Assembly: GCF_030814995.1 (NCBI RefSeq)
Contig: NZ_JAUSVX010000001.1
Span: 1,302,001 to 1,366,000, forward strand
Direction of reading: 5' to 3'
Source of the DNA: Labrys wisconsinensis
GTDB lineage: Bacteria > Pseudomonadota > Alphaproteobacteria > Rhizobiales > Labraceae
Length of the DNA: 64,000 nucleotides
Position 1 is the first letter of the stretch. Each line of letters opens with the position of its first letter. The notes under the pieces are model-generated. The model was not told the origin of the DNA. It searched no databases and saw only the letters and a program-made list of their open reading frames with translations. Both the position numbers and the translations under genes were made by a program. Of this stretch, positions 6,061 through 61,906 are shown in pieces.

Positions 6061-6069
6061 GATGCTCTC

Positions 6070-7334: not shown

Positions 7335-7398
7335 GGCGCTCCCGCCGGCCTGCCGGTCGGAGGCCGCCCGATCGCTGCGGACCTCCCGCTCCGGCGCA

Positions 7399-9225: not shown

Positions 9226-9227
9226 CT

Positions 9228-9614: not shown

Positions 9615-9618
9615 GGCG

Positions 9619-10050: not shown

Positions 10051-10220
10051 TCAAACGTATTGCGATGCACTATCGCTTCGCGCGCCCGGACGCAATGCGA
10101 GCGTGGCGGGTCGGCTCTGCATAGCAGGAGTGGAGACCGTTGCGGCCCCCGCACGCCGGCGCCTCTTGAATGTCGCGGCGCGGGGCCCATGTCCTGCGCT
10201 GGAAAGGAGCCGATCGCCCC

Positions 10221-10595
10221 ATGTCCGAGACGACGTCCGAGACCCTGTTCGGCGACGATGCCCGCACGCGGCGGCGCGAGCGCCGCCTGCATGCCCAGTT
10301 CCTGCCGAAGCTGCGGCGGGTGCTGGCGCGCGTCCCCTTCGCCGAGGATCTGCTGGCGGCCTATTACGCCGTGCTCGACCGGCGCACGCCCATGGCCGTC
10401 AGGGTGACGCTGATCGGCGCGCTGGCCTATTTCGTCATGCCCTTCGACGTCGTGCCGGACTTCATCCTCGGCCTCGGCTTCACCGACGATGCGGCCGTGC
10501 TCTACGCCGCGCTGCGCTCGGTCGCCGGGGCCATCGAGGAGCGCCACCGCGAGGCGGCGCGCCGCTGGCTGGACGAGGTCGCGGCCGAGGGCTGA
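10221..10595 (+). CDS. YkvA/DUF1232 family protein
   Basis: A 124-residue small protein with the DUF1232 (YkvA) pattern: RVTLIGALAYFVMPFDVVPD followed by ILGLGFTDDAAVL at about residues 58-90. These are small membrane-associated proteins of unknown function. ATG at 10221 is preferred over an upstream in-frame ATG at 10170 because GGAAAGGAG precedes it by about 11 bases and the extra residues are unlike the family. It is divergent from sdhC and followed after 57 bases by another small membrane-protein gene. Confidence 0.78.
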   Translation: MSETTSETLFGDDARTRRRERRLHAQFLPKLRRVLARVPFAEDLLAAYYAVLDRRTPMAVRVTLIGALAYFVMPFDVVPDFILGLGFTDDAAVLYAALRSVAGAIEERHREAARRWLDEVAAEG

Positions 10596-10652
10596 CGGCC
10601 TCGACGCCGGTGCCGCGCACGGATAGGACGTTGCTCCCCGGCGGAGGCGTCC

Positions 10653-11057
10653 ATGTTCGATTCGGTGTCGCGAACCCTGATCGGCCTCGTCCTGACGCAG
10701 ATCCTGTTCGCGGCGCTGCTGCCGCTGGCGCTGATCCCGCCGCCGGAGGGGCTGGAGTTCCGCATCTATTCCGTGGGCTTTGCCAGCGCCCGCGACCTCG
10801 TGGTCGAGGCCGCCGCCTTCACGGTCGTGCTGTTCACCGCGGCGAACGTGCTGCTGCGCCGGCTCGGGCGCACCGGCCTCCTGCCGACCACCGTGCTGGT
10901 CGGCCTCTCCCTGGTCGCCGCGCCGTTCTGGGCCAACACCGGCAGCCTCGCCGACGTCGCCGGCCGGGCCTGGTCCTTCGATGCCGCCTATGCCGTGCTG
11001 GCGCTCGGCCTCGGCGCGCTGTTCTGGCTGATCGCCATGCGCGCGGAGCGCTCGTGA
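10653..11057 (+). CDS. Hypothetical four-helix membrane protein
   Basis: A 134-residue protein of unknown function with four likely transmembrane helices at about 8-28, 47-66, 76-94 and 109-128. No motif or family was recognised. The ATG follows a GGAGGCGTCC stretch that can serve as ribosome-binding site. It lies between the YkvA-like gene and the LemA gene in the same direction, 57 and 100 bases away, and could belong to either transcription unit. Confidence 0.65.
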   Translation: MFDSVSRTLIGLVLTQILFAALLPLALIPPPEGLEFRIYSVGFASARDLVVEAAAFTVVLFTAANVLLRRLGRTGLLPTTVLVGLSLVAAPFWANTGSLADVAGRAWSFDAAYAVLALGLGALFWLIAMRAERS

Positions 11058-11157
11058 CGGCGGCCGGGCCGCGCGCGGCCGGCGCAAGTCTGCTATGACT
11101 GCAACCCGCGGCGGGAAGGCGCCCGCCGGTCCATTGCGTTGAGGGGAGACCGTTCCC

Positions 11158-11757
11158 ATGATCGCCAGAAGCCTGCGCTCGCTCGCCGCCGTCGTCGCCA
11201 TGGCCTTCGCGCTGGGCGGCTGCGGCATCAACAACGTGCCGACCTACGAGGAGAAGGCCAAGGCCGCCTGGAGCGAGGTGCAGAACCAGTATCAGCGGCG
11301 CGCCGACCTGATCCCCAACCTGGTGGAGACGGTGAAGGGCTACGCCAAGCAGGAGAAGGACGTGCTGGAGGGCGTGGTCGCCGCCCGCGCCAAGGCGACC
11401 CAGATCACGGTCGATGCCTCGATCCTCAACGACCCCGAGAAGTTCAAGCAGTTCCAGGACGCGCAGCAGCAGCTCTCCGGCGCGCTCGGCCGGCTGCTGG
11501 CCATCACCGAGAACTATCCCGACCTCAAGTCCAACCAGAACTTCCTGGCGCTGCAATCGCAGCTCGAAGGCACTGAGAACCGCATCGGCGTCGCCCGGCG
11601 CGACTATATCGAGGCGGTGCGCGTCTACAACACCGAGCTGCGCACCATTCCCGGCCGCTGGATCGCCGCCATCCTCTATCCCGATGCCAAGCCGATGGAG
11701 ACCTTCGCGGCGACGCCCGGCAGCGAGACGCCGCCCAAGGTGAATTTCGGAACGTAA
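11158..11757 (+). CDS. LemA family lipoprotein-like protein
   Basis: A 199-residue LemA-family protein, tethered to the cell envelope by an N-terminal signal with the lipobox-like ALGGCG (Cys at about residue 22). Helical LemA core motifs are clear: YQRRADLIPNLVETVKGYA, DLKSNQNFLALQSQLEGTEN and RRDYIEAVRVYN. The function is poorly defined. LemA genes commonly precede TPM-domain genes, as here. The start has GGGGAGA 8-9 bases upstream. A long inverted repeat separates it from the next gene. Confidence 0.92.
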   Translation: MIARSLRSLAAVVAMAFALGGCGINNVPTYEEKAKAAWSEVQNQYQRRADLIPNLVETVKGYAKQEKDVLEGVVAARAKATQITVDASILNDPEKFKQFQDAQQQLSGALGRLLAITENYPDLKSNQNFLALQSQLEGTENRIGVARRDYIEAVRVYNTELRTIPGRWIAAILYPDAKPMETFAATPGSETPPKVNFGT

Positions 11758-11842
11758 GGGATCCGTCCTCGGATCGGTGGATCGGGTGGGTACGGTGGAG
11801 CGAGGTGCGCGCGTGTCGAACTGGACTCGACGCTGGCGCCTT

Positions 11843-11946
11843 CCCTCCCCCTTGCGGGGAGGGATAAAGGGTGGGGGTCGTGGTCGTCGGGCTCGCCATG
11901 TCCTGATGGACCCCCACCCCTTATCCCTCCCCGCAAGGGGGAGGGG
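11843..11946. repeat. Long imperfect inverted repeat, family B copy 1
   Basis: The arms at 11843-11879 and 11909-11946 are inverted copies of each other. Each contains a GC-clamp hairpin (CCCCCTTGCGGGGAGGG type) followed by ATAAAGGGTGGGGGTC. Transcribed, the element would fold into a long stem with a roughly 29-base loop. It lies in the 214-base gap between the LemA and TPM genes. A second copy lies at 38673-38776 in the rhamnose operon. It could attenuate or stabilise mRNA, or be a non-autonomous mobile repeat. Confidence 0.85.
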
Positions 11947-11971
11947 ATCGGCCAGTGTTGCGCCTGGAACA

Positions 11972-12865
11972 ATGAATGCCCCCGCGCGGCGTCTTGGCCG
12001 CATGTCGAGCCAGGCCTCGCCGCAAGCGGCTGCCGGCCGCTCCTCGCTTGCAACCCTGGGTGCCTGGGCGCCCGGCCGCCTGCGCGCGGCCGTAGTGCTG
12101 CTCGTCGTCCTGCTCGCCGCCCTGGCGAGCCCGGCCTTCGCCGCCGATCCGACCTTCCCGCCGCTCACCGGCCGCGTCGTCGACCAGGCCGGCATCCTCG
12201 ACGCTGCGACGAAGGCGGCGCTCGAGCGCAAGCTCGCGGCGCTGGAGCAGACGTCGAGCGACCAGCTGGTGGTCGCCACCCTCGCCTCGCTGCAGGGCCT
12301 CGACATCGCCGATTATGGCTATCGCCTCGGCCGGGCCTGGGGCATCGGCCAGGGCAAGCTGAACAACGGCGTCCTGCTGATCGTCGCCCCGAGCGAGCAC
12401 AAGCTCAGGATCGAGGTCGGCTACGGCCTGGAGGGCACGCTCACCGACGCGCTGTCGAGCGTGGTCATCCAGCAGGCGATCCTGCCGAAGTTCCGCGCCG
12501 GCGACATGCCCGCCGGCATCAGCGCCGGCGTCGACGCCATCGTCTCGATCCTCACCGGCGACGAGGCCGAGTGGAAGAAACGGGCCGAGGAAGGCGCCCG
12601 CCGGCCCGACACGTTCAGCGCTTCGGATGCCATGGTCCTGATCTTCGTCGTGTTCATCGTCCTGATCTTCCTCGGCAGCGCCTTCCGGCGCGACATGTCC
12701 GCGCCCGGCGCCGGCCTCGGCACCCGTCGGCGCGGCGGCATGCCGCCGATCATCTTTCCGCCCAGCGGTGGCTTCGGGGGCGGCTTTGGCGGTGGCAGCG
12801 GTGGCGGCGGCTTCTCCGGCGGCGGCGGGTCGTTCGGCGGCGGCGGCTCGTCGGGGAGCTGGTGA
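11972..12865 (+). CDS. TPM domain (YgcG-like) protein
   Basis: A 297-residue envelope protein with a signal peptide (hydrophobic about 33-50, cleavage near SPAFAADP) and a TPM phosphatase-like domain: LTGRVVDQAGILD, then SSDQLVVATLASLQG, GIGQGKLNNGVLLIVAP and GYGLEGTLTDALSS. A transmembrane helix (about 223-240) and a Gly/Ser-rich tail (GGFGGGFGGGSGGGGF) follow. TPM proteins are linked to photosystem II repair in plants; the bacterial role is unclear. ATG at 11972 is chosen because the frame upstream runs through inverted repeat B. The gene overlaps the next by TGATG. Confidence 0.88.
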   Translation: MNAPARRLGRMSSQASPQAAAGRSSLATLGAWAPGRLRAAVVLLVVLLAALASPAFAADPTFPPLTGRVVDQAGILDAATKAALERKLAALEQTSSDQLVVATLASLQGLDIADYGYRLGRAWGIGQGKLNNGVLLIVAPSEHKLRIEVGYGLEGTLTDALSSVVIQQAILPKFRAGDMPAGISAGVDAIVSILTGDEAEWKKRAEEGARRPDTFSASDAMVLIFVVFIVLIFLGSAFRRDMSAPGAGLGTRRRGGMPPIIFPPSGGFGGGFGGGSGGGGFSGGGGSFGGGGSSGSW

Positions 12866-13563
12866 TGACGATGCTGCTCAGTGCCGCGGACCATGACCGC
12901 ATCGCCGGGGCCATCGCCGCGGCGGAGGCCCGCACCTCAGGCGAGGTCTATTGCGTGGCCGCGCGCCAGGCCTCGAGCTATCGCCTCGTGCCCCTGGCCT
13001 GGGCCGCGCTCGCCTCGCTCGTCGTCCCGGCTCTGATGGCGCTGTGGGGCTATGCGCCGCATCGCTGGCCGCTGGTCGGCGAGCCCTGGTGGCCGGGCGG
13101 AGCCACCTCCGACGAGGTCGACCTGGCGGTGCGCACCGGCCTCGTCGTGCAGGTCGTCATCCAGGTCGCGGTGTTCGCGCTGGTCTGGCTGGCCACCTGG
13201 CCGATGCGCGTGCGCCTCATCGTGACGCCACGCTCCCTGAAGCGCGAGCATGCGCAGACCATGGCGATGCACCAGTTCCTGACCCGGGGCCTGCAGCGCA
13301 CGCGCGAGCGCACCGGCGTGCTGATCTTCGCGGCCCTGGCCGAGCACGAGGTCGCCGTCGTCGCCGACGAGGGCATCCACGCCAAGGTCGGCCCGGAGGT
13401 CTGGGATCGGGCCGTGGCGGCGCTGGTGGCGGCGGCCCGGGACGGGCGTGTCGGCGACGGCTTCGTCGACGCGGTCACGCTCTGCGGCGCCGTGCTGGCC
13501 GAGCATTTCCCGCCGCGGCCCGACGACGTCAACGAGCTGCCGGACCGGATCGTGGAGCTGTAG
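12865..13563 (+). CDS. TPM domain membrane protein
   Basis: A 232-residue second TPM-family gene. The N-terminal TPM part (AADHDRIAGAIAAAEARTSG) is interrupted by two transmembrane helices (about 38-58 and 90-115). The C-terminal half (ERTGVLIFAALAEHEVAVVA, then EGIHAKVGPEVWDRAVAALV) is typical of TPM proteins of the YgcG type. The ATG overlaps the previous stop (TGATG), so translation is coupled. The gene ends 2 bases from the convergent modC stop. Confidence 0.85.
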   Translation: MTMLLSAADHDRIAGAIAAAEARTSGEVYCVAARQASSYRLVPLAWAALASLVVPALMALWGYAPHRWPLVGEPWWPGGATSDEVDLAVRTGLVVQVVIQVAVFALVWLATWPMRVRLIVTPRSLKREHAQTMAMHQFLTRGLQRTRERTGVLIFAALAEHEVAVVADEGIHAKVGPEVWDRAVAALVAAARDGRVGDGFVDAVTLCGAVLAEHFPPRPDDVNELPDRIVEL

Positions 13564-13565
13564 CC

Positions 13566-14669
13566 TCAGCCTCGCCCGGCGCCTTCTTCGATCGAGGCGG
13601 CCTTGATCATCGCGAACACGGCGCCGCCGGCGCCGAGGCCGAGCTCGTCCACCGATTTGCGGGTGACGAAGGTGGCGAGCGTCTCGCCGCCGGGCAAAGC
13701 GAGGTCGACCCGCGCCACCGGCCCGTCGTCGAGCGTCGTCGCCCGGATCGTGCCCGCCAGCACCGTGCGCACGCTGACGTCCCGCGGCCGCTCGAGCGCC
13801 AGCGTCACGTCGGCGCCGTGCACCAGCACGCGGGTCAGCGCGCCGGGCGGCAGGTCGCGGCCCGGCACGCAGATCTCGCCGGCGGGATGGTCGAGCAGGG
13901 TCAGGCCGTAGCGGGTGTCGTGGCTGCGCACCCGCGCGGTGATCAGCGACACGGTGTTGAAGCGCGTGTCGGAGGGCGAGCCGGCGAGCGGCCCGAGCAC
14001 GGTCTCGGGCGCGCCCACGGCCTGGACCCGCCCGGCCTCGATCAGCACCACCTGGCTCGCCAGCCGCGCCACCTCCTCCATCGCGTGCGAGACGTAAAGG
14101 ATCGGGATGGCGAACTCGTCGCGCAGCCGTTCGATCAGCGGCAGGATCTCCCGCTTGCGCGGCACATCCAGCGCGGCGAGCGGCTCGTCCATCAGGAGGA
14201 TGCGCGGGGCCGACAGCAGCGCCCGGCCGATGGCGACGCGCTGGCGCTCGCCGCCCGACAGCGAGGCCGGCCGGCGCGCCAGCAGCGCGCCGATGCCGAG
14301 CACCTCGACCGCCGCGTCGAAATCGAGCCGCCGGGCATCCCTGGGGGCGAACCAGCGGCCATAGGCGAGGTTCTGCCGCACGCTGAGATGCGGCAGCAGC
14401 TGCGCGTCCTGGAACACCAGGCCGATGCGGCGGCGATGCGGCGGGACGAACAGGCCGGTGGCGGCGTCGAACAGCGTCGTGCCGCCGATGGCGATGCGTC
14501 CGCGCTCCGGCCGCACCAGGCCCGCCACCGCGGCGATGACGGTCGACTTGCCGGCCCCCGAGCGTCCGAACAGGGCGGTCAGGCCGCCATCGGCCTGAAA
14601 GCCGACGTCGAGGGCGAAGCCGCCGCGACGGGCGTGGATGTCGATGTCGATGATGCGCGATGCCAGCAT
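13566..14669 (-). CDS. modC: Molybdate ABC transporter ATP-binding protein
   Basis: A 367-residue ATPase of the molybdate importer. The Walker A motif is GRSGAGKST at about residues 34-42, the ABC signature LSGGERQRVAIGRALL, Walker B ILLMDEPLAALD, and the switch His is in YVSHAMEEV. The C-terminal third is a MOP-type molybdate-binding domain ending GAVFAMIKAASIEEGAG, as in ModC. ATG at 14669 gives the usual length; an upstream in-frame start adds 41 unlike residues. The normal partners modA and modB are absent from the window; the upstream gene is divergent. Confidence 0.92.
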   Translation of the reverse strand: MLASRIIDIDIHARRGGFALDVGFQADGGLTALFGRSGAGKSTVIAAVAGLVRPERGRIAIGGTTLFDAATGLFVPPHRRRIGLVFQDAQLLPHLSVRQNLAYGRWFAPRDARRLDFDAAVEVLGIGALLARRPASLSGGERQRVAIGRALLSAPRILLMDEPLAALDVPRKREILPLIERLRDEFAIPILYVSHAMEEVARLASQVVLIEAGRVQAVGAPETVLGPLAGSPSDTRFNTVSLITARVRSHDTRYGLTLLDHPAGEICVPGRDLPPGALTRVLVHGADVTLALERPRDVSVRTVLAGTIRATTLDDGPVARVDLALPGGETLATFVTRKSVDELGLGAGGAVFAMIKAASIEEGAGRG

Positions 14670-50863: not shown

Positions 50864-52096
50864 CTATAGGTGTGAAGCGAGGACTGCCGGTGATCGGCCT
50901 TCACGCAGCCATCGTGCCATCGATTGTGCATTGAAGATCTGGTCGAGAACCATGTGCGCCGCTCCCACCAGGCCCATCTCGTTCACATCCTGCGTCGCGG
51001 GAACCACGGCGAGGTCGCGGCTGACGAAAGGCAGTGACTGCCGGTAGAGCTCGGTCTTGAGCGCCGCGAGGAAGAGGTTGCTCGTGGCGGCAAGTGACCC
51101 GCCCACCAGAATGGCGCTCGGGTTGAACAGGTTGACCGCCGAAGCGAGCGTCAGGCCGATGCGGCGTCCTGCCTCGGTCAGGAGCGACACCGCGACCGCG
51201 TCGCCCTCGCGTGCCGCCTCGCCGAGATCGGCGACGCACAGCCCGCCATTGTCCCGGATCCTTTCCATCAGCCGCGCGCTCTCGCCGGCTCGGGCGCGCA
51301 TAGTGGCCTTGTGGATCAAAGCCTCGCCGCCGACGGCCGCCTCCAGGCAACCGCGTCGGCCGCAGCGGCAGAGGTCGTCGGCGCCCTCGCTGTGGATATG
51401 GCCGATATTGCCCGCCGCGCCCTGCGCCCCGCGATAGACCTTACCGTCGACGACCGTGGCCGCCCCGAGCACCAGGTCAGCGAACATGTACAGGAAATCG
51501 CCCTTGATGCCGGTCCTGTCGACCCGCAATTCGCCCAGGGCGAGCATGTTGTCGTCCGTATCGACCCAGGTCTGCGCACCGAACGCAGGGCTCAGATCGC
51601 GCCGCGGATGATAGCTGGTCCAGCTCGTCGGCAGAGAGGGCGAGTCGAGCAGCGTCGCTTCATCGAAGCTGATATGGGCGGGCAGGCCGACGCCAATGCC
51701 CCAGATATCTGCTTGTGGCCGCAGACGATTCCAGATCGCCTTGATCTCGCCCATCAGAGCGCTTGGGCCCTCCGCGAACGAGCAGGCCACGCATTCGCTG
51801 GCGAGAACGTGGCCGGAGAGATCCGCGACGCCTGCAACGAAGCCGCCGAGACTGCCATAGGCGACGAGGAGCGCTCCGGCTTCGGCCCGGATCTGCAATT
51901 CCCGGGCGGCACGGCCGCCATTCGCCTGCGCCAGCCTTCCCTCGGCGATAAGTCCGCGATCGAGCAACAGATTCACGCGCTCGGCGACGATGCCGCGGCC
52001 GAGGCCCGAGGCCTGCTGCAGCGCCGGACGTGCGACCGCCTGGCCGGAGCGGATCAGCTCCAGGATCAGGCTCAGCGAATCGAATGCGTCGACCAT
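50864..52096 (-). CDS. ROK-family transcriptional regulator
   Basis: A 410-residue NagC/XylR-type protein. The N-terminal winged helix (about residues 20-60, RPALQQASGLGRGIVAERVN) binds DNA. The ROK domain follows, with the zinc-binding CRCGRRGCLEAAVGG motif near residue 247. The usual ATP-site DxGxT motif reads VADLSGHV with GSLGGFVAG before it, so sugar kinase activity is unlikely and a sensor role is likely. Divergent from the sugar ABC importer and C-glycosidase-like genes, which it probably controls through twin palindromes in the gap. Confidence 0.88.
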   Translation of the reverse strand: MVDAFDSLSLILELIRSGQAVARPALQQASGLGRGIVAERVNLLLDRGLIAEGRLAQANGGRAARELQIRAEAGALLVAYGSLGGFVAGVADLSGHVLASECVACSFAEGPSALMGEIKAIWNRLRPQADIWGIGVGLPAHISFDEATLLDSPSLPTSWTSYHPRRDLSPAFGAQTWVDTDDNMLALGELRVDRTGIKGDFLYMFADLVLGAATVVDGKVYRGAQGAAGNIGHIHSEGADDLCRCGRRGCLEAAVGGEALIHKATMRARAGESARLMERIRDNGGLCVADLGEAAREGDAVAVSLLTEAGRRIGLTLASAVNLFNPSAILVGGSLAATSNLFLAALKTELYRQSLPFVSRDLAVVPATQDVNEMGLVGAAHMVLDQIFNAQSMARWLREGRSPAVLASHL

Positions 52097-52198
52097 CGGA
52101 GTGCTCTTTCAACCCGGGCCAAGTTTGTCGCGGCGAGGGGCCGGGCCGCAATCGGCGAGCGACAGGAACTTGCGCGACATCGCCACTGTTGCACTTCA

Positions 52199-52232
52199 GC
52201 ATTAAATATGCAAAAGTCAGCATAATAAATGC
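52199..52232. promoter_or_regulatory. Twin palindromic operator, probably for the ROK regulator
   Basis: Two copies of GCAT-N5-ATGC lie 21 bases apart: 52199-52211 (GCATTAAATATGC) and 52220-52232 (GCATAATAAATGC). Each sits in a longer shared context, CAGCAT...ATGCA. The spacing is two turns of B-DNA, so two dimers would bind the same face. The region is AT-rich, in the 177-base gap between the divergent ROK gene and the importer. ROK regulators bind such palindromes; the assignment is by position. Confidence 0.7.
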
Positions 52233-52273
52233 AGAACCGAGCAGGGTTGCTCGCAGCTCAAGGGAGGATGCAG

Positions 52274-53281
52274 GTGACGAAGCGATTGGTGAGCGCGGGC
52301 GTGTCGCGCCGGACGGCAATCCTGGGTGTGGGCGCCCTGGCGCTGCCCCTCGCGGGGATCGTGTCGAGGTCGCATGCCCAATCCACGCCGCGGACGATAA
52401 AGATCGCCTTCAGCATCGACGTGCTGGACCAGACGCAGAATGTCGGGCTCGCCGCCATGAAGGCGCGCGTCGACGAGATCAGCAAGAGCGGCAGGGGCAT
52501 TGCCGTCGAGCTCGACGTCTATGACGCGCAGAGCAGCGTCAACAAGCAATTGTCCGACGTGCAGACGGCACTCATCAAGCAGCCCGACGTGCTGATCCTC
52601 AGTGCCGTCGATGCCAAGGGCTCGCTGCCCGCGGCCCGGGCCGCCAAGGACGCAGGCGTCAAGATTATCGACAAGCGTCCCTCCAGTCCGGAGCCCGCGA
52701 TAGCCGACGTCGCTTTCTTTTCCAACGACGAGGCGCGCTATTCGAAGGCCACCACCGACTGGCTGCGCGCCTACTTGCAGAAGAACCCGGGCGCCGTGCT
52801 CAAGGTCGGCCTCATCTATGGCGCACCTGCGCAGACCGCCCAGCTGCTGCGGTGCGATGCCATCAAGGATCTCGCCAAGGAGATGCCCGACCGCATGCGG
52901 ATCGTGGCATCCGGCTACGGCAACTGGCTGACCGCGACGGCGCAGAACCTCACGCAGGACTGGCTGCAGGCGCATCCCGACATGAACCACGTCGCCGCGG
53001 CCAATGACATCATGGCGATGGGCGCCGCCAACGCCTTGGCCGCCGGGGGCAGGAGCAAGGACGTGCAGGTGAGCGGCTATGATCTCACCAGCGAGGGCCT
53101 GCAGCGGATCAGGAATGGCCAGCAGGCGCTCGATGTCGGCGTGACGCTGCAGGGCAACGCCCAGGTGATCGATGTCGCCGTCGGCCTCGTCCTGGGCACG
53201 TTCAAGGACAAGAGCTACTACATCAACCCGGTCTACGCGGTCGACGCCTCGAACGTGAACACTTACGCCGAGAAGGCATGA
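52274..53281 (+). CDS. Sugar ABC transporter substrate-binding protein
   Basis: A 335-residue periplasmic type I binding protein (ribose/galactose-like). A Tat-type signal, SRRTAILGVGALALPLAG, ends near SHAQS. The mature part has PDVLILSAVDAKGSLPAARA and AANDIMAMGAANALAAGG, typical of the family. The GTG at 52274 has AGGGAGG 6 bases upstream; ATG at 52268 abuts that site and ATG at 52229 lies inside the operator, so both are less likely. First gene of the operon downstream of the twin operator. Confidence 0.85.
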   Translation: MTKRLVSAGVSRRTAILGVGALALPLAGIVSRSHAQSTPRTIKIAFSIDVLDQTQNVGLAAMKARVDEISKSGRGIAVELDVYDAQSSVNKQLSDVQTALIKQPDVLILSAVDAKGSLPAARAAKDAGVKIIDKRPSSPEPAIADVAFFSNDEARYSKATTDWLRAYLQKNPGAVLKVGLIYGAPAQTAQLLRCDAIKDLAKEMPDRMRIVASGYGNWLTATAQNLTQDWLQAHPDMNHVAAANDIMAMGAANALAAGGRSKDVQVSGYDLTSEGLQRIRNGQQALDVGVTLQGNAQVIDVAVGLVLGTFKDKSYYINPVYAVDASNVNTYAEKA

Positions 53282-53318
53282 TCCGGCTCGATCCCGCCCC
53301 AATGTCGATGGTTCAGCG

Positions 53319-54341
53319 ATGACTCGATCCACATGGCCACCGGGCGGCATGTCCGCTGCCTGGCGCCGCCTCCTGCTGCTCAACAAGGCCGTGCTGTTCG
53401 CGGTTGTGCTGGCGACCGTGCTGTCCTTCGCCTCTCCGTATTTCTTCACCCGGCCGAATACCCTGGCGCTGCTTGAGCAGAGCGTCGTCATGGCCATCGT
53501 GGCGCTGGGCTACACCCTGATTCTGGCGATGGGCGAGATCGACCTGTCGCTGGGCGGCATCATCGCGCTCGCCGGCTTCGTCATGGCCAAGCTCATGGCC
53601 GAGGCCGGCCTCCCCTATGAGCTCGCCATCCCCGCGGGCCTTGCCATGGGCGCGCTCTGCGGCGGACTCAACGCCACGCTGGTTTCGACATTCGACCTGC
53701 CGCCCTTCATCGTGACGCTGGCAACCGGCGCGCTTTTCACGGGCGTGCTCTACATCATCTCCAATCTCGTGCCGATCTCCGATCTCCCGGCCGATTTCAT
53801 CGCCATCGGCCAGGCGCGATGGGCAGGCGTGCCGCTCCCTGTCGTGATCGTCGTGCCGATCGTCATCGGCTTCTATCTGCTGGCGAGCCAGTCGGTGTTC
53901 GGCCAGCACGTCATCGCCCAGGGCGGCAATCCCGAGGCCGTGCGCGTCGCCGGCATCAACATCAGGCTGCTGCGGCTGAAGGTCTATGCATTGGCAGGCG
54001 CGTGCTACGGGGTCGGCGCCGTCTTGCTGACGGCGCGATCGGCCTCGGCTCAGATTGCCGCAGGATCAGACCTCCTCTTGGTGGTGATCACCGCGGTCGT
54101 CATCGGCGGCACCCCGCTGCTCGGCGGCAAGGCCAACATGGTGGGCACCGTGTTCGGATGCCTGATCATCGGCATGATCAACAACGGCCTCAATCTCCTG
54201 GGCATGAACGCCAACTACCAGATCGTGATGCAGGGATTGCTCATCCTCTTCGCGCTGCTGGTCGATGTGCAGTCGGCTAAGATCCTGCTCGGCCTCGATC
54301 GCCGGCGCCTGCAGCGTCTGCGGCGGGAGGGGCGGCTGTGA
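53319..54341 (+). CDS. Sugar ABC transporter permease
   Basis: A 340-residue RbsC-type permease with about eight to ten helices. Conserved blocks: YTLILAMGEIDLSLGGIIAL near residue 66, PPFIVTLATGALFTGVLYII, QGGNPEAVRVAGINIRLL and VVIGGTPLLGGKANMVG. It ends in a basic tail (DRRRLQRLRREGRL). It follows the binding-protein gene by 37 bases and its stop overlaps the GTG of the ATPase gene (GTGA). Confidence 0.9.
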   Translation: MTRSTWPPGGMSAAWRRLLLLNKAVLFAVVLATVLSFASPYFFTRPNTLALLEQSVVMAIVALGYTLILAMGEIDLSLGGIIALAGFVMAKLMAEAGLPYELAIPAGLAMGALCGGLNATLVSTFDLPPFIVTLATGALFTGVLYIISNLVPISDLPADFIAIGQARWAGVPLPVVIVVPIVIGFYLLASQSVFGQHVIAQGGNPEAVRVAGINIRLLRLKVYALAGACYGVGAVLLTARSASAQIAAGSDLLLVVITAVVIGGTPLLGGKANMVGTVFGCLIIGMINNGLNLLGMNANYQIVMQGLLILFALLVDVQSAKILLGLDRRRLQRLRREGRL

Positions 54342-55096
54342 TCGGCGCAAATCCCCTCATCGAGATGGTCTCGATCAGCAAGTCCTTCGGCGGCGTGCAG
54401 GCGGTCGACGATGTGTCGCTCCAGGTGTTCCCCGGCCAGGTCGTCGGCCTTCTCGGCCATAACGGCGCCGGCAAATCGACCCTCATCAAGATTCTCGCCG
54501 GCGCCTATCGCGCCGACAACGGCATCATCCGCGTCGATGGCCAGCCGATCCGCATCGCCAACCCCAACGACGCGCGGGCGCACGGCATCGAGACCATCTA
54601 CCAGAACCTCGCGCTGGCCGATAATCTCGATGCTGCCGGCAACCTGTTTCTCGGCAGGGAGAAGCGCTGGCTGGGCGTCTTCGCCGATCGCCGCCGGATG
54701 CGGGCAGAGACCGCCCACATCTGCAGCCAGATCAACCCCCGCTTCACCAATTTGACGGTGCCTGTCCGCAACCTTTCGGGCGGGCAGCGCCAGTCGATTG
54801 CCATCGCGCGAGCCCTCTATTTCAACGCCAAGCTGCTGATCATGGACGAGCCGACCGCCGCTCTGGGCCCTGGCGAGACGCGGCAGGTCAAGGAGCTGAT
54901 CCAGACGCTCAAGGCGCGCGGCGTCGGCGTGCTCCTCATCAGCCACGACATCGAAGATGTTTTTGAGGTCGCCGACGAACTGGTGGTCATGGCGGGCGGC
55001 CGCGTGGTCGGCCGGCGCAAGACCCATGAGGCGACGCGCAATGAAATTCTCTCCCTGATCATTCTCGGCAGTCAGGGCGAGGCACCCGTGCCGTAG
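54338..55096 (+). CDS. Sugar ABC transporter ATP-binding protein, single domain
   Basis: A 252-residue ATPase: Walker A GHNGAGKST at about residues 40-48, signature NLSGGQRQSIAIARAL, Walker B LLIMDEPTAALG and switch His in LISHDIEDV. Unlike RhaT it has only one nucleotide-binding domain, as in the fructose-type FrcA importers. The start GTG overlaps the permease stop (GTGA). The C-terminal part is truncated relative to double-domain RbsA proteins but complete for this subtype. Confidence 0.9.
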   Translation: MIGANPLIEMVSISKSFGGVQAVDDVSLQVFPGQVVGLLGHNGAGKSTLIKILAGAYRADNGIIRVDGQPIRIANPNDARAHGIETIYQNLALADNLDAAGNLFLGREKRWLGVFADRRRMRAETAHICSQINPRFTNLTVPVRNLSGGQRQSIAIARALYFNAKLLIMDEPTAALGPGETRQVKELIQTLKARGVGVLLISHDIEDVFEVADELVVMAGGRVVGRRKTHEATRNEILSLIILGSQGEAPVP

Positions 55097-55142
55097 ACGC
55101 GCCGCCGCCACCAGACGCAGCGTTCTAGTATTGGAGTGACCG

Positions 55143-55586
55143 ATGCCCGCCGGCTCGACCTATTGTATTGCCCGAGGAATGCTTCGGGGGCCGATAAGGA
55201 ACGTGCGCTCCGCCGATGCGGAAGGCGGGAACTACGTCGCCTTCGACATCGGCAACCAGTTCCTCCATCCGAACCATCCGCTGGGATGGATCCGCAGGCT
55301 CGAGATCGACATCGACGGGGAAACCGTCCCGGCGGTGGGTTCTTTCTTCGTCCTGCGCCGCCAGTGGTTTCCCCTGACTCATCTGCGCACCATCACCGAC
55401 GTCTGGTGGCATATGGGCGAGACCGCCACCCTCAACCTGAGCCGTCCGCCGATTGCCCCGGGGCGGCGCGTCATTGCCTGCCGGTTCTTCGTTTCGCTCT
55501 TCGTCAACACCCCGAAAATCGACCTCGACGACCTCTGGCCATCGCTGACCCAGAACATTTCCGCCGAACTCATCTGTGAAGGCTAG
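55143..55586 (+). CDS. C-glycoside deglycosidase beta-subunit-like protein (DUF6379 type)
   Basis: A 147-residue all-beta protein resembling the DUF6379 family, now known as the beta subunit of C-glycoside deglycosidases (CarC/DgpC type). Recognisable blocks: GNQFLHPNHPLGWIRRLEI, the GETVPAVGSFFVLRRQW segment and TITDVWWHMGETATLNL. In characterised enzymes this subunit binds the metal-dependent alpha subunit and completes its active site. A TIM-barrel gene follows after 9 bases, as expected for the alpha subunit. GGAG lies 7 bases upstream of ATG. Assigned from memory of the family; a profile search is needed to confirm it. Confidence 0.68.
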   Translation: MPAGSTYCIARGMLRGPIRNVRSADAEGGNYVAFDIGNQFLHPNHPLGWIRRLEIDIDGETVPAVGSFFVLRRQWFPLTHLRTITDVWWHMGETATLNLSRPPIAPGRRVIACRFFVSLFVNTPKIDLDDLWPSLTQNISAELICEG

Positions 55587-55595
55587 AGCGAAGAC

Positions 55596-56528
55596 ATGTT
55601 GGATTCTCTGGCGCTGAGCGTCTGGTCGCTGCAGCAGCTGACCCTTGAGCGCGGCGTTCCGCTCGGCACGCTCCTCGACGTCATCGTCGATCTCGGCGTA
55701 TCGCAGATCGAGCTGAACGAAGACTATGTGCGGCTGCCCGAATATCGGCATCTGGCTGGTATGCGCCGCCTGCGCGCCGAGCTCGAGAGTCGTGGCCTGA
55801 AGCTCCTGTCGACGTGGTTCTACACGGACTTTCTCGGCACGGTACGGATTTCCTCCCGGCCGGCCCTGGTCGAGCAGTTGCGCGAATACCTGCTGACGGC
55901 GGCCGAGCTCGGCGCCGAGCAGCTGACCCTTCCGCTCGGCGACGGGTTCGATGGCATCGATGTGGACAAAGGGCGGGCAACCCTGAACGAGATTCTCGTC
56001 GAGGTGCTGCCGCTGGCCGAGGCCACGGGCGTGCGCATCGGCATCGAGACCGGCCGGTCCGAGGGGACCTTTCATACGCCCGGCGCCGTGCTGCGGCTCG
56101 TCGAGAGCTTTGCTTCACCGAGCCTCAGAATGGTGCCCGACTTCGAGGCCTGGCGGGTCTCGACCTCGGATCTGCCCTTGATGCATGTCGAGACCCAGGC
56201 GGCCTCGTCCGAGCCGGCGCCGGTTTCGCTTTTCCGCGCCTGCCTGCCCTATGCGCCGATTGTCCATGCCAAGCTGCTGCGCCTCGACGAGAACGGCGAT
56301 GAGCCGCACTTCCCGCTGCGCGAGCTGATGGCGGCGATCGTCGAGAGTCCAATCCGGCACATCCTGGAAGTCGAGTACGAAGGCTGGATTCCCGATGTCG
56401 ATCCACATCTGGATTGCATCGAACAGACCCGGCAGTGCTTGTCCTTGCTTCGCCGCATGGCGAGCCATGCCATTCCCGCCACATCGCTCAGCGCAGCAAC
56501 GGGCGAGCGCGGCGTCTTGACCGAATAG
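55596..56528 (+). CDS. TIM-barrel sugar-phosphate isomerase/epimerase, probable C-glycoside deglycosidase alpha subunit
   Basis: A 310-residue AP-endonuclease-2-type TIM barrel. A full E-D-H-E metal set can be traced: E in RIGIETGRSEG (about 152), D in RMVPDFEAW (about 183), H in APIVHAKLLRLDE (about 226) and E in HILEVEYEGW (about 257). In CarB/DgpB-type deglycosidases such a barrel binds Mn2+ and a histidine eliminates the C-C bonded aglycone from a 3-keto sugar. The pairing with a DUF6379-type gene and a sugar importer supports that role; an ordinary sugar isomerase or epimerase is the alternative. The last 35 residues are variable. Confidence 0.68.
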   Translation: MLDSLALSVWSLQQLTLERGVPLGTLLDVIVDLGVSQIELNEDYVRLPEYRHLAGMRRLRAELESRGLKLLSTWFYTDFLGTVRISSRPALVEQLREYLLTAAELGAEQLTLPLGDGFDGIDVDKGRATLNEILVEVLPLAEATGVRIGIETGRSEGTFHTPGAVLRLVESFASPSLRMVPDFEAWRVSTSDLPLMHVETQAASSEPAPVSLFRACLPYAPIVHAKLLRLDENGDEPHFPLRELMAAIVESPIRHILEVEYEGWIPDVDPHLDCIEQTRQCLSLLRRMASHAIPATSLSAATGERGVLTE

Positions 56529-56768: not shown

Positions 56769-57104
56769 CTATGTGCCGTCACCGGACTTCTTATGCACCT
56801 GGCTCGGCAAGCGGCCTGCTTCAAAATCCCGGATGTAGTGCTCGATTGTCAGCGCCGTGCCCAGAAAATGCACCTCACCGGTGCGACGGTCCACGAGGAT
56901 CGGCGAATTGCCGACCAGTTGATCCTCGAAGCGGCCGCTGCGCAGGTACTTGCTGCTTTGGTAGTTGAAAACGAAGCATGTTGGCTTCTCGATGATTGCA
57001 TCGTCAAATATGACGTAGCTAAACTCGGGATCTTGTGGTGGTCTCTGTAATACCTCGTTTGCCATTTCCAGAGCTTCTGTCAAGCTTAAGTAATTATTGA
57101 CCAT
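56769..57104 (-). CDS. Imm35-like immunity protein (YrhB family)
   Basis: A 111-residue acidic cytoplasmic protein. The C-terminal half (CFVFNYQSSKYLRSGRFEDQ, then LVGNSPILVDRRTGEVHFLG and TALTIEHYIRDFE) closely follows the Imm35/YrhB pattern, in which GNxPIxVD and a tyrosine-rich helix are conserved. Imm35 proteins neutralise polymorphic nuclease toxins. GGGAG lies 6 bases before the ATG. No toxin gene abuts it; the nearest is the large gene at 58715-61906, with two other immunity-like genes between. Confidence 0.75.
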   Translation of the reverse strand: MVNNYLSLTEALEMANEVLQRPPQDPEFSYVIFDDAIIEKPTCFVFNYQSSKYLRSGRFEDQLVGNSPILVDRRTGEVHFLGTALTIEHYIRDFEAGRLPSQVHKKSGDGT

Positions 57105-57415
57105 CAATCGCTCCCGACCCCACTACAGAAGTGCCGCCGCCATAGCCTTTGTCTCCGATCGCCACCCGCAGCCTGCTGGATAGGCGATCGAATGTCGTGG
57201 TCATAAGCCCCTGAGGGAATCAGTCGCGTTCGCTCGTCCGATCTGTAAGGACATGGACACGTCACGCCGGAGGCCGACGGTGCTCGCCGCAAAGGAAAGC
57301 CACTGGCGAACCGCCCGCCCCAGGCATCGCCCAATGCCGCGATCGCGGTCGACTCGAGGATCCCGAGCTCCCCCATCGGCTCTCGCACGAGCAAGTTCGC
57401 GGGATCAACAAGCGC
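57105..57415. other. 311-base gap in the immunity cluster
   Basis: No gene is supportable here. A 96-codon frame on the - strand runs from 57394 and its TGA overlaps the Imm35-like start (TGATG), but its composition (clusters such as CPCPYRSDERTRLIP) resembles no protein family and lacks an SD site. The stretch is GC-richer than the immunity genes beside it. It may be the eroded end of a displaced toxin module. Confidence 0.4.
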
Positions 57416-57790
57416 TCATCGCGGCAACGGTCTCCTGTCAGAGAGGCCGAACCTGGCTCGGAATGCCGCGTCTTCTGTAACATTGACCGGCAGAACGAAG
57501 TCCGGAATTCCGGGGGCATGCACCGCTTCCATCTGCTTCATGGCCTCTGTCGGCGGGGTTGCGCACACCACTTCTGCCGACAATTCGCAATCGGCCACGC
57601 TCGGATAGGCTTTCGCAAACTGACCTGAGACAACGAACAGAAGATAGGCGGACAACTTTCGCCGGAGCGCGCTCTCGCGCTCGGCATCATCGGCGATGTC
57701 CCCATTGTCGTAAATCACCAATCCGACACGTGACGAGACGCCCGGCAACCGTGTAATGAGGTCGATAGAGGTGAAATCGGACAAGCTCAT
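57416..57790 (-). CDS. DUF6572-like small protein
   Basis: A 124-residue protein resembling DUF6572, a small family of unknown function often found near toxin genes. The family-like pattern is SLSDFTSIDLITRLPG, then VGLVIYDNGDI, LRRKLSAYLLFVVSGQF and AEVVCATPPTEAMKQM. A perfect AGGAGG lies 5 bases before the ATG. It is one of three small genes downstream of the toxin-like gene and probably another immunity or accessory protein. Confidence 0.6.
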   Translation of the reverse strand: MSLSDFTSIDLITRLPGVSSRVGLVIYDNGDIADDAERESALRRKLSAYLLFVVSGQFAKAYPSVADCELSAEVVCATPPTEAMKQMEAVHAPGIPDFVLPVNVTEDAAFRARFGLSDRRPLPR

Positions 57791-58176
57791 CGTTACCTCC
57801 TACAATGAACTCATCTGCCCTGTCAGTCCAGATTGTATTCGTTTCTCGATCTCCTCAAGCGGGAATTACGGTGATGCTGCATTTTATTGGCGCAAGCTGG
57901 GACTGGCGGTCTGGGCGATCCGCTGGAGCCGCCCAGGCCGACGACGCGAAACTGCCGGCATAGGGCGAGTCGGGTCCGGCGGCCCGGATGGGCGCGCCGC
58001 GTGCTGGGGCCCGACGGCCTGCGCCGAAGGACGCCGGTGGGTGTTTCACGACATCGGCCGGAGGCGCGCGGCGCCTTCATGCCGATGCGTTCGGGCCTGA
58101 ACCCATTGGGGCGCGGAGCTGTCAGGCGACCGCCCTTTCTGCAGAGGCAAATCTCCTCGCCGGCCGGCCGGACTCC
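57791..58176. other. 386-base gap between two immunity-like genes
   Basis: Nothing recognisable. About 57900-58160 is GC-rich with a sharp boundary to the AT-rich immunity genes on either side, so this may be a remnant of host-like or toxin N-terminal sequence left by recombination. Frames on both strands are short and lack start signals. Confidence 0.4.
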
Positions 58177-58635
58177 CTATTTGCCCTCTTCGTACTTGGG
58201 CAGGTATCGCGCAAAGAAGGGATCTTTCTCCGTCAGCAATGTCTTGCCGACCAACTTGAGAACCGTCACCTCGGCTATGGGGCTCGGCTCCTCGCCGTCG
58301 AACATGGTGCAGAGCCCATAGGAGGCTGGAAATTCCTCGCCGACGAGACGGAAGAAATTTTGCATCTTTTCGAGTATGTTGTCTGGCGTCTTATGGTGCA
58401 TCCAATTGACGAACGAAAGGACATCGTCATCGAGTTCACGAAACGTCAATTTGTCCGACCATCCGCACGTCTTGTCACAGAAATTACTTATTTTCTCCAT
58501 GATAATTCCCATTCTCTCGCCGTTGTGAAAGATTGGATACTTAGAGTCATAGAGATATTCTTCTTCATCGGACATATACTCGTGTCCAAATTTATCTCCG
58601 ACGGTGGCGACGATCCAAAAATTGATGACGCTCAT
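58177..58635 (-). CDS. Probable immunity protein (Imm7-like)
   Basis: A 152-residue AT-rich gene placed 79 bases after the toxin-like gene. The protein is acidic in its first half and includes YMSDEEEYLYDSKYPIF and RLVGEEFPASYGLCTMFDGE; the ASYGL-xx-FDGEE segment recalls the GSYGLLYxxDDED block of Imm7 proteins, but the match is weak. Position directly downstream of the toxin's C-terminus is the strongest argument that it is the cognate immunity protein. The SD site is poor (AGAGATGG). Confidence 0.55.
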   Translation of the reverse strand: MSVINFWIVATVGDKFGHEYMSDEEEYLYDSKYPIFHNGERMGIIMEKISNFCDKTCGWSDKLTFRELDDDVLSFVNWMHHKTPDNILEKMQNFFRLVGEEFPASYGLCTMFDGEEPSPIAEVTVLKLVGKTLLTEKDPFFARYLPKYEEGK

Positions 58636-58714
58636 GGTTCCATCTCTTGATTTGTGGCCGTGTGGTGTAATGACGTGTATCAGAACGATGTATGTTATAT
58701 AGGTCTATTAAACT

Positions 58715-61700
58715 TCAAAATGGAACATCATCTATCTTTGCAGTGATTCCATATTCATTTTCATATTGTCTAATAATCCTCATTGTTTCATCGGAAAATC
58801 CATCATTGCTGTGAAAATAAGGTATTCTACCTGTCGCAAGAGCTACCTCAAATGTTGTTCTCGCTTGCCTTCTCATAGCTTTCTTCAGTTTGAAAGCGAG
58901 CTTAGTTTGAGCGATATATATGTCGCTGATGGTGTCAAGTTCCCTCGGCGAGCCTCCCTTGAGAAGAATGTTATCGAAAGCCGAGTTTGGCACACCACCG
59001 ATTCGCTTTGCGAGCAAAATATCGTTGGGACTGGGGCTCCCCGATTTGACCGGGACAATACGACCGGGATTCCTGACTTCATCCAGGCTGATGAACTTAA
59101 ATTTGTGGACACGATTGTTGAACGCCTCGTCAATTGCTAGGCTGAAAGCGGACTGACGCGAATGACCGGCCTGCTCGAATTTTCGTATTACCTCTTCATT
59201 GGGACGTAACGGTGCTCCCCGTTTGAACTGCGGGTAGCGGACGGGATCTTCGAAATCCGGAATGGGAGAGATTTTGGACGTTATCGGACCATCGACGTCG
59301 TCTTTCGATGGGGGACGGGGAGGCGGCTCCGGGGGGACGGATTCAATTTTGGCGCTGCCGTGCCCCATTGCTTTAGGATTCGGCTCCAGCACGGACTGCA
59401 TCGCCTTCGCGGCACTGCGACCCGATCGAAGCAGCGCCGGAGCCTCGAGGACGATGCCGCCGAGCACCGTGCCGACGAGGTCGTAGTGATAGCGATAGGC
59501 CTTGCTGATGAAGTCGTCCTGGAGGGTCCTGCCGTCCTCCATCAGCTGAATGAAGTCGGCGCCGGAGAGGGGCTGGCCTTTGTTGACCTGCAGGCGGGTC
59601 GCGAGATCGCCGGCGAGAGCCTTGTAGGCCGCGAGGCTGCCCCGCACCGGAATGCGCTTGAGTTCGTTCTGGAGATAGTCGACCGCGTCCAAGCTGCCCG
59701 TGACGGCAGCGAAGGCGATGGCCGCGGCATAGGCGTCCGCAAGGCTCTCCTGGAATTCGGGCGGCTGGCCGAGAGCCCGGCCTCCGCCCTGCCAGAAGGC
59801 GGGCTCGTAATGGGCCCTCATGTCTTCGAGGGAGTGGTCGATCTTGGAGTAAACCTCCCCCGAGAGCTTCCAGCGGGCGGCCTTCAGCTGGCCGGCGAAC
59901 GCGGATGGATCGAACCCGCCGGGCCGGGCGAAGCCGAAGTTGGAGGGAGAGCCTCGGTCGAGCGGCTCGGGGATCGGCCCGGACAGCGGATCTCCATCCG
60001 GCGCCTGGGCGTTGGCCGGAGGCTGGGCGTGCGGCGCCGCGCCCCGAGGGACGGCGGGTGCGACGGGCGCGCGGCTGACGAGGCTGTCCTGAAACCGCTG
60101 CCCCCGGTCGACCAGGTCGGCGAGCTCGCCCTCGGAAAGCGAGGCGCCGGGATTGGCCTGGATCTGTCGGCGGAGCTCACCGTCGAGGCCGCGATAGGCG
60201 GCGAGACCGTTGTTCACGCTCATGCCGGGGAGGCCGGCTTCGAAGCGGTCGAGCGCCTCCGTGGTGCCGGTCAGCGCGCTGCCGATGAGCGCGGCGGCGT
60301 AGCCTGTCGCAGCCGCCTGGTGGAATCCGACGCTCTGGCCTTGCGCAAAAGCGCCACCCTGGTCAGCGGTCGGATCGTAGAGGGAGCGGATCTCGGCCTG
60401 CGCTCGGTCGATGACGGCAAGAATCCTTGCCCTGAACCGCTTCGGGGCGGCGCGCGCTTCGGCGACGAGCGCGGGGAAATCGAGACCGGCCGGCGCGTGG
60501 AAGCCGATTCCGGCAGGCTTGTTTGGGTCGGCCTTCGGTGCGACGGGCGCCGGAGGTGTCTCGCCGGGTTGCCGATAGCTGACGGGCGTCAGCACGGCGT
60601 CCCGATCGAGCGAGGCCGGATCGGCGCCGGCGGCCAATGCGGCCATCCCGCCGCGGGCGAGACCGAGGGGGTCCATACCGCCCGGCGCCGCCTGGGGCGG
60701 GCCGTTGCCCGCGAGGCCTGGAAGTCCGGGCATGCCCGTTGCGGATGTGCCGGCCGGCATGCCCGGCAGCGTCATGGTCGCGGTCGGTTGCCAGGATCCC
60801 GCCGGGACCGGTCCCTCCTGCGCCCGAACGGGCGGGGCGGCGGCTCCGGCCGGCGGCGACGCGAGCGGTCCCGCCGCCGCGCCGGATGGGCCGGCCGCCG
60901 CCGGGTCCGCCGGCCGGCGATCCGCCAGCGGGATCCGGAGCGGCATCCCGCCGGCCGGCGCGGCCCGAAGGCTGGCGACGTAGCGCTCGCCGGCCGTCCG
61001 CTGGCCCTCGAAGACCAGCTTCGCCAGCCCGGGGTCGAGGCTTTTGAGGATGCGGTTGGGGGTGAGGTCTGGGTGCCCCTGGCCGGTGGTGAGGATGGAG
61101 AGATAGTCCGGGGCGACGAGGCCCATGACGGCGTCGCGCTCGGCCGCGGCGCGGTCGCGGTCCTCGCCGTGCCGCTGCACCGCGTTGCGGGCGAACTTGC
61201 GCATCACGGCGTCGGAGGCGTCGGGGTGTCGCGTCCGGAACCAGGCGCCGGCATGGCCGTGCCCGCCATCGGCCAGGGTGGCGGGATCGATGGTCGTCGG
61301 CACGGATGCCGACACCGCATCGGCCGCGCCGTCCGGGCTGCCCGCATCGCCCGGGCCGGCCTCGCCCGGTGCCGGCGGGCGCTGCCAGATCGCCCGGCGT
61401 GCCTCGGGGTCGGCGAGGATGGCGGCGCCCTTGGCCGCCGCGAGCCTGTCGGGCAGGCCTTTGAGGCGGGCGTCCCAGGCCACCTGCGGCAGGTCGGGGT
61501 TGCGGGCGGTGCCGGTGAGCTGCTGCTCGGCGGCATCGCGCATGGCTGCGTCGGGATGCTCGGCGATGGTGCGCAGGAGCTCGGCGTCGAGCCCGTCCTG
61601 GCGCTCGACATGGTAGCGCCGCCGCTCGCCCGCCTCGGCCTCGGCGAGCGGGCCGGTGAGCTCGCTGCCGAGCTCGTCGATTCGCCAGGCCAGGCGCTGG

Positions 61701-61906
61701 CGCACCTCCGGCGACCAGCGGGCGGCCATGGCTTGCGCCTCGTCCCGGAACTGGGAGCGGAAGCGGCTGGTGGCGTCGCCGCCGCCGGGCGGCATGGCGT
61801 CCCGGGTGGCGCGGGCATAGGCGGCCTGGGTGACGGCGAAGCGCTGGAGATCGGCGCGGGCACGCGTCTGCAGCTCCGCCGGCGAGAAGTCGGGGATGCG
61901 GGGCAT
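58715..61906 (-). CDS. Large polymorphic-toxin-like protein with phage-virion-like N-terminus
   Basis: A 1063-residue protein. Residues about 1-320 are helical and charged (DEAQAMAARWSPEVRQRLAW), like internal-virion/ejection proteins of alphaproteobacterial phages. About 321-465 is a Gly/Ala/Pro-rich linker. Two related 140-residue units follow (about 471-612 and 660-805). The tip (about 885-1063) is AT-rich: 58741-58800 has 18 G/C in 60, against 54 in 60 at 60841-60900. Its end (IYIAQTKLAFKLKKAMRRQA, then RIPYFHSNDGFSDETM) recalls restriction-endonuclease-fold toxins. No signal peptide. No RHS, CdiA or LXG features. Three immunity-like genes lie downstream. Confidence 0.65.
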   Translation of the reverse strand: MPRIPDFSPAELQTRARADLQRFAVTQAAYARATRDAMPPGGGDATSRFRSQFRDEAQAMAARWSPEVRQRLAWRIDELGSELTGPLAEAEAGERRRYHVERQDGLDAELLRTIAEHPDAAMRDAAEQQLTGTARNPDLPQVAWDARLKGLPDRLAAAKGAAILADPEARRAIWQRPPAPGEAGPGDAGSPDGAADAVSASVPTTIDPATLADGGHGHAGAWFRTRHPDASDAVMRKFARNAVQRHGEDRDRAAAERDAVMGLVAPDYLSILTTGQGHPDLTPNRILKSLDPGLAKLVFEGQRTAGERYVASLRAAPAGGMPLRIPLADRRPADPAAAGPSGAAAGPLASPPAGAAAPPVRAQEGPVPAGSWQPTATMTLPGMPAGTSATGMPGLPGLAGNGPPQAAPGGMDPLGLARGGMAALAAGADPASLDRDAVLTPVSYRQPGETPPAPVAPKADPNKPAGIGFHAPAGLDFPALVAEARAAPKRFRARILAVIDRAQAEIRSLYDPTADQGGAFAQGQSVGFHQAAATGYAAALIGSALTGTTEALDRFEAGLPGMSVNNGLAAYRGLDGELRRQIQANPGASLSEGELADLVDRGQRFQDSLVSRAPVAPAVPRGAAPHAQPPANAQAPDGDPLSGPIPEPLDRGSPSNFGFARPGGFDPSAFAGQLKAARWKLSGEVYSKIDHSLEDMRAHYEPAFWQGGGRALGQPPEFQESLADAYAAAIAFAAVTGSLDAVDYLQNELKRIPVRGSLAAYKALAGDLATRLQVNKGQPLSGADFIQLMEDGRTLQDDFISKAYRYHYDLVGTVLGGIVLEAPALLRSGRSAAKAMQSVLEPNPKAMGHGSAKIESVPPEPPPRPPSKDDVDGPITSKISPIPDFEDPVRYPQFKRGAPLRPNEEVIRKFEQAGHSRQSAFSLAIDEAFNNRVHKFKFISLDEVRNPGRIVPVKSGSPSPNDILLAKRIGGVPNSAFDNILLKGGSPRELDTISDIYIAQTKLAFKLKKAMRRQARTTFEVALATGRIPYFHSNDGFSDETMRIIRQYENEYGITAKIDDVPF

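Follow-up and report, generated by a model that had tools for sequence, protein, structure and literature searches.

A monosaccharide-type importer operon of Labrys wisconsinensis carries a divergent relative of the two-subunit C-glycoside deglycosidases

The alphaproteobacterium Labrys wisconsinensis carries, in the 64,000-nucleotide stretch of DNA analysed here (contig NZ_JAUSVX010000001.1, positions 1,302,001 to 1,366,000; hereafter the window), an operon that joins an ATP-binding cassette (ABC) importer to a pair of proteins related to the beta and alpha subunits of the C-glycoside deglycosidases (CGDs). Judged from sequence, the pair is best read as belonging to a third CGD-superfamily lineage and as forming a metalloenzyme of two subunits that would convert an imported, monosaccharide-sized substrate. 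There is about an even chance that the whole is a catabolic operon for such a sugar or sugar derivative under the control of its divergent ROK regulator, with the alpha/beta pair a probable isomerase or epimerase. An earlier note on this DNA had proposed instead that the operon serves the import of plant C-glycosides and the cleavage of their C–C bond. That proposal named the right superfamily, in that both subunits are homologous to CGDs, but the reaction it assigned is wrong or at least unsupported.

The 147-residue protein assigned in the earlier note to DUF6379 is firmly identified as a true relative of the CGD beta subunit. The window protein itself passes the PF19906 (CGDB) profile narrowly, at 29.1 bits with a curated cut-off of 27.6, and its orthologues in Agrobacterium and Pleomorphomonas score 48.4 and 41.9 bits. 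When a profile of the three beta sequences was run against the PDB, CGD beta chains made up all six matches (best E 2e-7), and the top 17 structures found by Foldseek with a moderate-confidence model were CGD beta chains or fused CGDs. Since these three lines agree, the match exceeds chance. Structure models of the two subunits (from two-row alignments, pLDDT 72 and 66) were used for the fold and not for active-site geometry. The beta protein contains long stretches that are invariant across the three genera. No NCBIfam family matched either enzyme subunit.

The alpha subunit, a TIM barrel of the xylose isomerase-like family PF01261, has the metal ligands E151, D182, H224 and E260, together with K226 and E262. 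The complete E-D-H-E set reported earlier is thus present; however, PF01261 barrels have this set in general, as do most of the 33 others aligned here, and it therefore gives no pointer to C-glycosides. The resemblance to known CGDs (PuCGD/DgpB-DgpC, EuCGD, MiCGD and AgCGD1/2) is broader, extending to adjacent genes for a PF19906 beta and a PF01261 alpha, the beta fold, the Glu/Asp/His/Lys/Glu residues of the alpha metal site, an E-x-E-G motif and the closest Foldseek structures. In AgCGD2, the reaction needs a metal, bound by Glu147, Asp179, His269, Lys271 and Glu305, and the base His149 (PMC8563793). Replacement of the catalytic histidine leaves 10.4% of activity in PuCGD (H143A) and 1.8% in the counterpart mutant of MiCGD (PMC8563793). 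The beta subunit contributes Tyr39, which is conserved in known enzymes and needed specifically for C-glycosides, the Tyr39Phe change costing approximately 1.2 x 10^4-fold on C-glucosides (PMC10628242).

Both of these catalytic residues are replaced in the window proteins. This is evident in an alignment of 11 canonical alpha/beta pairs with a three-member window group, made up of the window proteins and their Agrobacterium and Pleomorphomonas counterparts. The window group retains the metal residues along with the Lys and the second Glu, whereas the catalytic His, kept in 11 of 11 canonical alphas, is found in none of the three; its position falls on Gly153 (ungapped) or Arg154 (gapped), in a segment that reads E151, then T, S or V, then Gly and then an invariant Arg. 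In the beta subunit, the Tyr39 position, placed by alignment with DgpB, holds Tyr followed by Arg in every one of the 11 canonical sequences and His42 (within L-H-P) in all three window-group sequences, where one additional residue is inserted beside it. Moreover, the spacing from the Asp to the His ligand is 42-43 residues in the window group versus 84-125 in canonical CGDs, and the lid domain is therefore missing.

The descent of the barrel is consistent with this mixture of likeness and difference. Searched against the PDB, the alpha profile had its top match in 4ovx (E 1e-8), a xylose-isomerase-domain protein of Planctopirus limnophila; in Foldseek, the alpha model found CGD alpha chains first, with 4ovx and D-tagatose 3-epimerases close behind. 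Trees took in 28-33 other barrels. With 33 of them (30 from the same genome and three from canonical CGD loci), the window group joined the canonical CGD alphas with support of 99/93. With 4ovx-type barrels added and long branches removed, the window group, the 4ovx-type barrels and the canonical alphas stood apart from all others (100/99). The canonical alphas formed a clade of their own (100/99 and 100/100), with the window group outside it and adjoining; the approximately unbiased (AU) test favoured no single order among the three groups (p 0.37 and 0.26). The barrel is thus no member of the canonical CGD alpha clade, although it groups with CGD alphas and not with ordinary isomerases. It is therefore neither an ordinary isomerase by descent nor a canonical CGD, and it is separate from all sampled isomerase-like barrels. 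It has the E-D-H-E site in common with ketose epimerases of the D-tagatose 3-epimerase type. The 4ovx-type barrels differ from it in reading E-N-H where the window protein has E-T-G-R, and two plasmid homologues have no annotated DUF6379 gene beside them. The earlier note had let its interpretation depend on two points, namely a match of the small protein to the beta family and a barrel set apart from ordinary sugar isomerases, and both were observed. In the 8.9-Mb genome of the window, PF01261 matches number approximately 40 and FGGY sugar kinases 12 or more, a large repertoire for sugar catabolism.

The six genes span 50864-56528, with the ROK gene on the minus strand and those for the binding protein, permease, ATPase, beta and alpha on the plus strand (Table 1). 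Plus-strand intergenic gaps are short (37, -4, 46 and 9 bp), so the five genes likely share a single transcript. The sugar-type importer, the divergent ROK gene and their arrangement with the two-subunit enzyme as one co-regulated unit all hold as first described. The importer has one Peripla_BP_4/RbsB-type binding protein, one permease gene and one ATPase gene, the composition of a CUT2 system, although its ATPase is single-domain in place of the usual fused double domain and, of the RbsA/XylG/YtfR models of NCBIfam (approximately 500 residues), matches the first half alone. Its components are closest to ribose, xylose and arabinose systems: the closest solved chains to the binding protein are D-ribose and other monosaccharide-binding proteins, and the top NCBIfam models for the permease are ribose, arabinose and allose permeases, every score being under the cut-off. 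The cargo of CUT2 transporters is almost exclusively monosaccharides (PMC11212667). The binding protein has a Tat-like signal, SRRTAIL, judged by eye. Its longest open reading frame (ORF) begins at ATG 52229, overlapping the second operator copy described below, but GTG 52274, which is preceded by a good ribosome-binding site (AAGGGAGGATGCAG-GTG), is probably the true start.

The same module of ROK regulator, binding protein, permease, ATPase, beta and alpha, with gene order and orientation preserved, is found on two Agrobacterium plasmids (L004 and L005) and in Pleomorphomonas carboxyditropha (L007). Relative to the window, identity is 46% (Agrobacterium) and 49% (Pleomorphomonas) for the ROK protein, 62% and 67% for the binding protein in the two other genera, 70-73% for the permease and ATPase, 48-50% for beta and 49-50% for alpha. 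The module was absent from almost all of the approximately 1,300 genomes searched: it turned up in none of four genomes of the same genus, 318 genomes of the G072 family, 19 other genomes of the Pleomorphomonas family and the other genomes sampled at class, order and phylum level; the two further matches in those last samples were canonical CGDs. The module is therefore a rare, patchily held accessory element. Its rarity rests on these genome searches and the plasmid set, as a degenerate-pattern contig scan with strict patterns recovered Pleomorphomonas only. A decayed remnant of the Agrobacterium-type operon lies on plasmid pRA_T24_1 of Rhizobium anhuiense (L006, at approximately 11900-14410), with a frameshifted alpha and a kinase that is 98.5% identical to the Agrobacterium kinase described next; the importer and beta genes were not found at that remnant.

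In Agrobacterium, the last gene of the operon encodes an FGGY pentulose kinase (TIGR01315, 687 bits versus a cut-off of 409). No such kinase is in the window. Pleomorphomonas has a TIGR01315 kinase elsewhere, unlinked to the module, and among the many FGGY kinases of the window's genome, none scores above the TIGR01315 cut-off. The kinase was accordingly rejected as a fixed part of the module. The Rbl operon of Citrobacter rodentium, which uses D-ribulose, combines an ABC importer with an FGGY D-ribulokinase (PMC12307932). It resembles the Agrobacterium homologue in having a monosaccharide importer of this type with an FGGY kinase, but it lacks a CGD-type beta/alpha pair, and the window operon itself lacks the kinase.

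The GCAT-N5-ATGC operator proposed earlier occurs twice, at 52199 and 52220, and the first copy is kept in three genera. A block, TTGCACTT-N2-GCA...ATGCA-R-AAG, is common to all three intergenic regions, and the operator core of Pleomorphomonas is a perfect palindrome. The sole exact match of the conserved block in the whole 8.9-Mb genome is the operon site. Three other sites, with 3 mismatches (ATTTTGCAT-N5-ATGCAAAAT), form a subtype of their own. No oxidoreductase is evident among the reading frames neighbouring these three sites, a weak negative given the high GC content and the simple ORF caller; the suggestion that a distant oxidase is controlled by the same operator is accordingly unsupported, and a regulon of that kind was set aside. 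Three near-identical 23-bp palindromes, ATTTTGCATKRAAAATGCAAAAT, lie at C2:144195-144217, C3:281007-281029 and C30:73485-73507 of the window's genome (G000). They resemble the operon operator yet are distinct from it, and a reversed control pattern matched nowhere.

A scheme can be drawn for how the preferred isomerase or epimerase would work. A ligand imported by the ABC system would relieve ROK repression, and alpha and beta would form a heterodimer in which a metal ion at E151, D182, H224 and E260 polarises a carbonyl/hydroxyl pair of the substrate. Since the window pair has lost both the catalytic His of CGDs and Tyr39-beta, the reaction is probably an isomerisation or epimerisation by proton transfer, which would yield a ketose; metal-bound glutamates would provide the acid and the base, as they do in D-tagatose 3-epimerases. 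The role of beta would be to give the sugar pocket its shape and not to bind a flavonoid aglycone. In Agrobacterium, the pentulose kinase of the operon would then phosphorylate this ketose, with D-ribulose 5-phosphate a plausible product; the window's genome would have to rely on a kinase encoded elsewhere, unless its substrate is a different one. Together, the CUT2-type importer and the Agrobacterium kinase favour a free, monosaccharide-sized substrate that is converted to a ketose. A more tentative extension, somewhat short of an even chance, is that the CGD fold has here become a heteromeric isomerase or epimerase of a free imported sugar, with beta repurposed from aglycone binding, in an undescribed rare-sugar pathway of alphaproteobacteria.

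Several observations weigh against this assignment. The kinase is linked in Agrobacterium only, of the three genera, and absence of the lid is not diagnostic, because EuCGD also has none. D-tagatose 3-epimerases have a substrate feature, D185-x-x-H188, that is not present in the window alpha, which reads D182-F-E-A; on this and on the tree, a D-tagatose 3-epimerase as such was rejected. Furthermore, a beta subunit is unexpected for a simple isomerase. In CGDs, beta binds the aglycone. That beta is conserved in this group suggests an unusual pocket or a substrate that is not just a bare sugar.

With the kinase unlinked in two genera and beta conserved, beta-elimination on a small carbonyl-bearing derivative stays the main rival, although it is unlikely. 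The pair would then act on a small 3-keto glycoside or a carbonyl-activated sugar derivative, imported already oxidised or with a carbonyl of its own, and split off a small leaving group, Arg154 possibly being the base. This would account for the retained beta subunit, for Lys226 and Glu262 (corresponding to Lys271 and Glu307 of AgCGD2) being as in CGDs, for the position of alpha next to CGD alphas on the tree and for an invariant Arg at or beside the place of the catalytic His. It fits less well with the example of AtOGE, an O-glycoside beta-eliminase of Agrobacterium that resembles the window enzyme as a sugar-acting TIM barrel with a Mn site from a plant-associated alphaproteobacterium. AtOGE is a single-gene enzyme unrelated in sequence to CGDs and shares its pathway with a glycoside dehydrogenase, yet even there the equivalent catalytic His is kept, and the H134A mutant is dead (PMC10628242). 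An eliminase would also sit oddly with the absence of an oxidase from all three loci and with a monosaccharide-type importer, and it leaves the pentulose kinase unexplained.

A true operon for plant C-glycosides of the puerarin, orientin or carminic acid type, with the 3-oxidase encoded elsewhere, is improbable. Homology of both subunits to CGDs and a barrel that is not among ordinary isomerases speak for it. However, the window pair branches outside the canonical clade, has lost the residues equivalent to His149 of AgCGD2 (His143 of PuCGD) and to Tyr39-beta in three of three cases, has no lid and is served by a CUT2 importer, with a pentulose kinase in the Agrobacterium operon. Moreover, each of the 11 canonical CGD loci examined has a GMC or Gfo/Idh/MocA oxidoreductase no more than approximately 5 kb away, whereas no relative of these CGD-linked enzymes was detectable in the 64-kb window, as first noted, or in the flanks of the Agrobacterium and Pleomorphomonas modules, and no oxidoreductase is apparent close to the three weaker operator-like sites. 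Least probable is an ordinary sugar isomerase that merely neighbours a CGD-beta-like protein with no shared function. The generic metal set and the epimerase structures close behind in Foldseek would allow it, but the two genes are adjacent in three of three genera, each product 47-50% identical and beta with its long invariant stretches, and alpha falls in a CGD-related clade.

Table 1. Genes and regulatory sites of the operon (positions in the window)
Feature	Position	Strand	Evidence or remarks
ROK-family transcriptional regulator	50864..52096	-	PF00480, 127 bits; divergent from operon
Conserved operator/promoter block TTGCACTTCAGCATTAAATATGCAAAAG	52189..52216	+	Counterparts at the corresponding intergenic place: TTGCACTTTTGCATTAATAATGCAAAAG (L007) and TTGCACTTTAGCAAATAATATGCAGAAG (L004)
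Second, weaker operator copy TCAGCATAATAAATGCAGAA	52217..52236	+	Repeat family D1, 80% identity; 21 bp downstream of first
CUT2-type periplasmic sugar-binding protein	52274..53281	+	PF13407 (Peripla_BP_4), 122 bits
ABC permease, RbsC/AraH-like	53319..54341	+	PF02653 (BPD_transp_2), 129 bits
ABC ATPase, single-domain form, RbsA/XylG-like	54338..55096	+	PF00005 (ABC_tran)
CGD-type beta subunit, 147 aa (DUF6379)	55143..55586	+	PF19906 CGDB
Xylose-isomerase-like TIM barrel, CGD-alpha-related, 310 aa	55596..56528	+	PF01261, 50.7 bits

Two further loci were observed. The region 56769-61906 of the window, downstream of the operon, encodes on its minus strand a 1063-residue protein that ends with a Tox-REase-3 domain. 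Close to it lie an Imm35 protein, a DUF6572 protein and a weak match to Imm7, which together probably form an interbacterial polymorphic toxin-immunity cluster. On plasmid pNL2 of Novosphingobium aromaticivorans (L060), positions 5989-12772 hold two separate alpha/DUF6379 pairs within 6 kb, along with a DUF1080 protein, another TIM barrel and a GMC oxidoreductase, which makes this a candidate locus for glycoside elimination.

Proteins that match DUF6379 or CGDB are liable to be annotated as CGD subunits. In this group, the pair has neither the catalytic His nor the C-glycoside-specific Tyr nor a partner oxidase, so annotation that relies solely on the beta subunit can be misleading; the CGD fold is in this way separated from C-glycoside cleavage. 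If the enzyme acts on free sugars, it would show how a sugar isomerase and a two-subunit enzyme of glycoside cleavage interconvert, and the compact operon with its defined operator offers a setting in which the substrate may be found directly.

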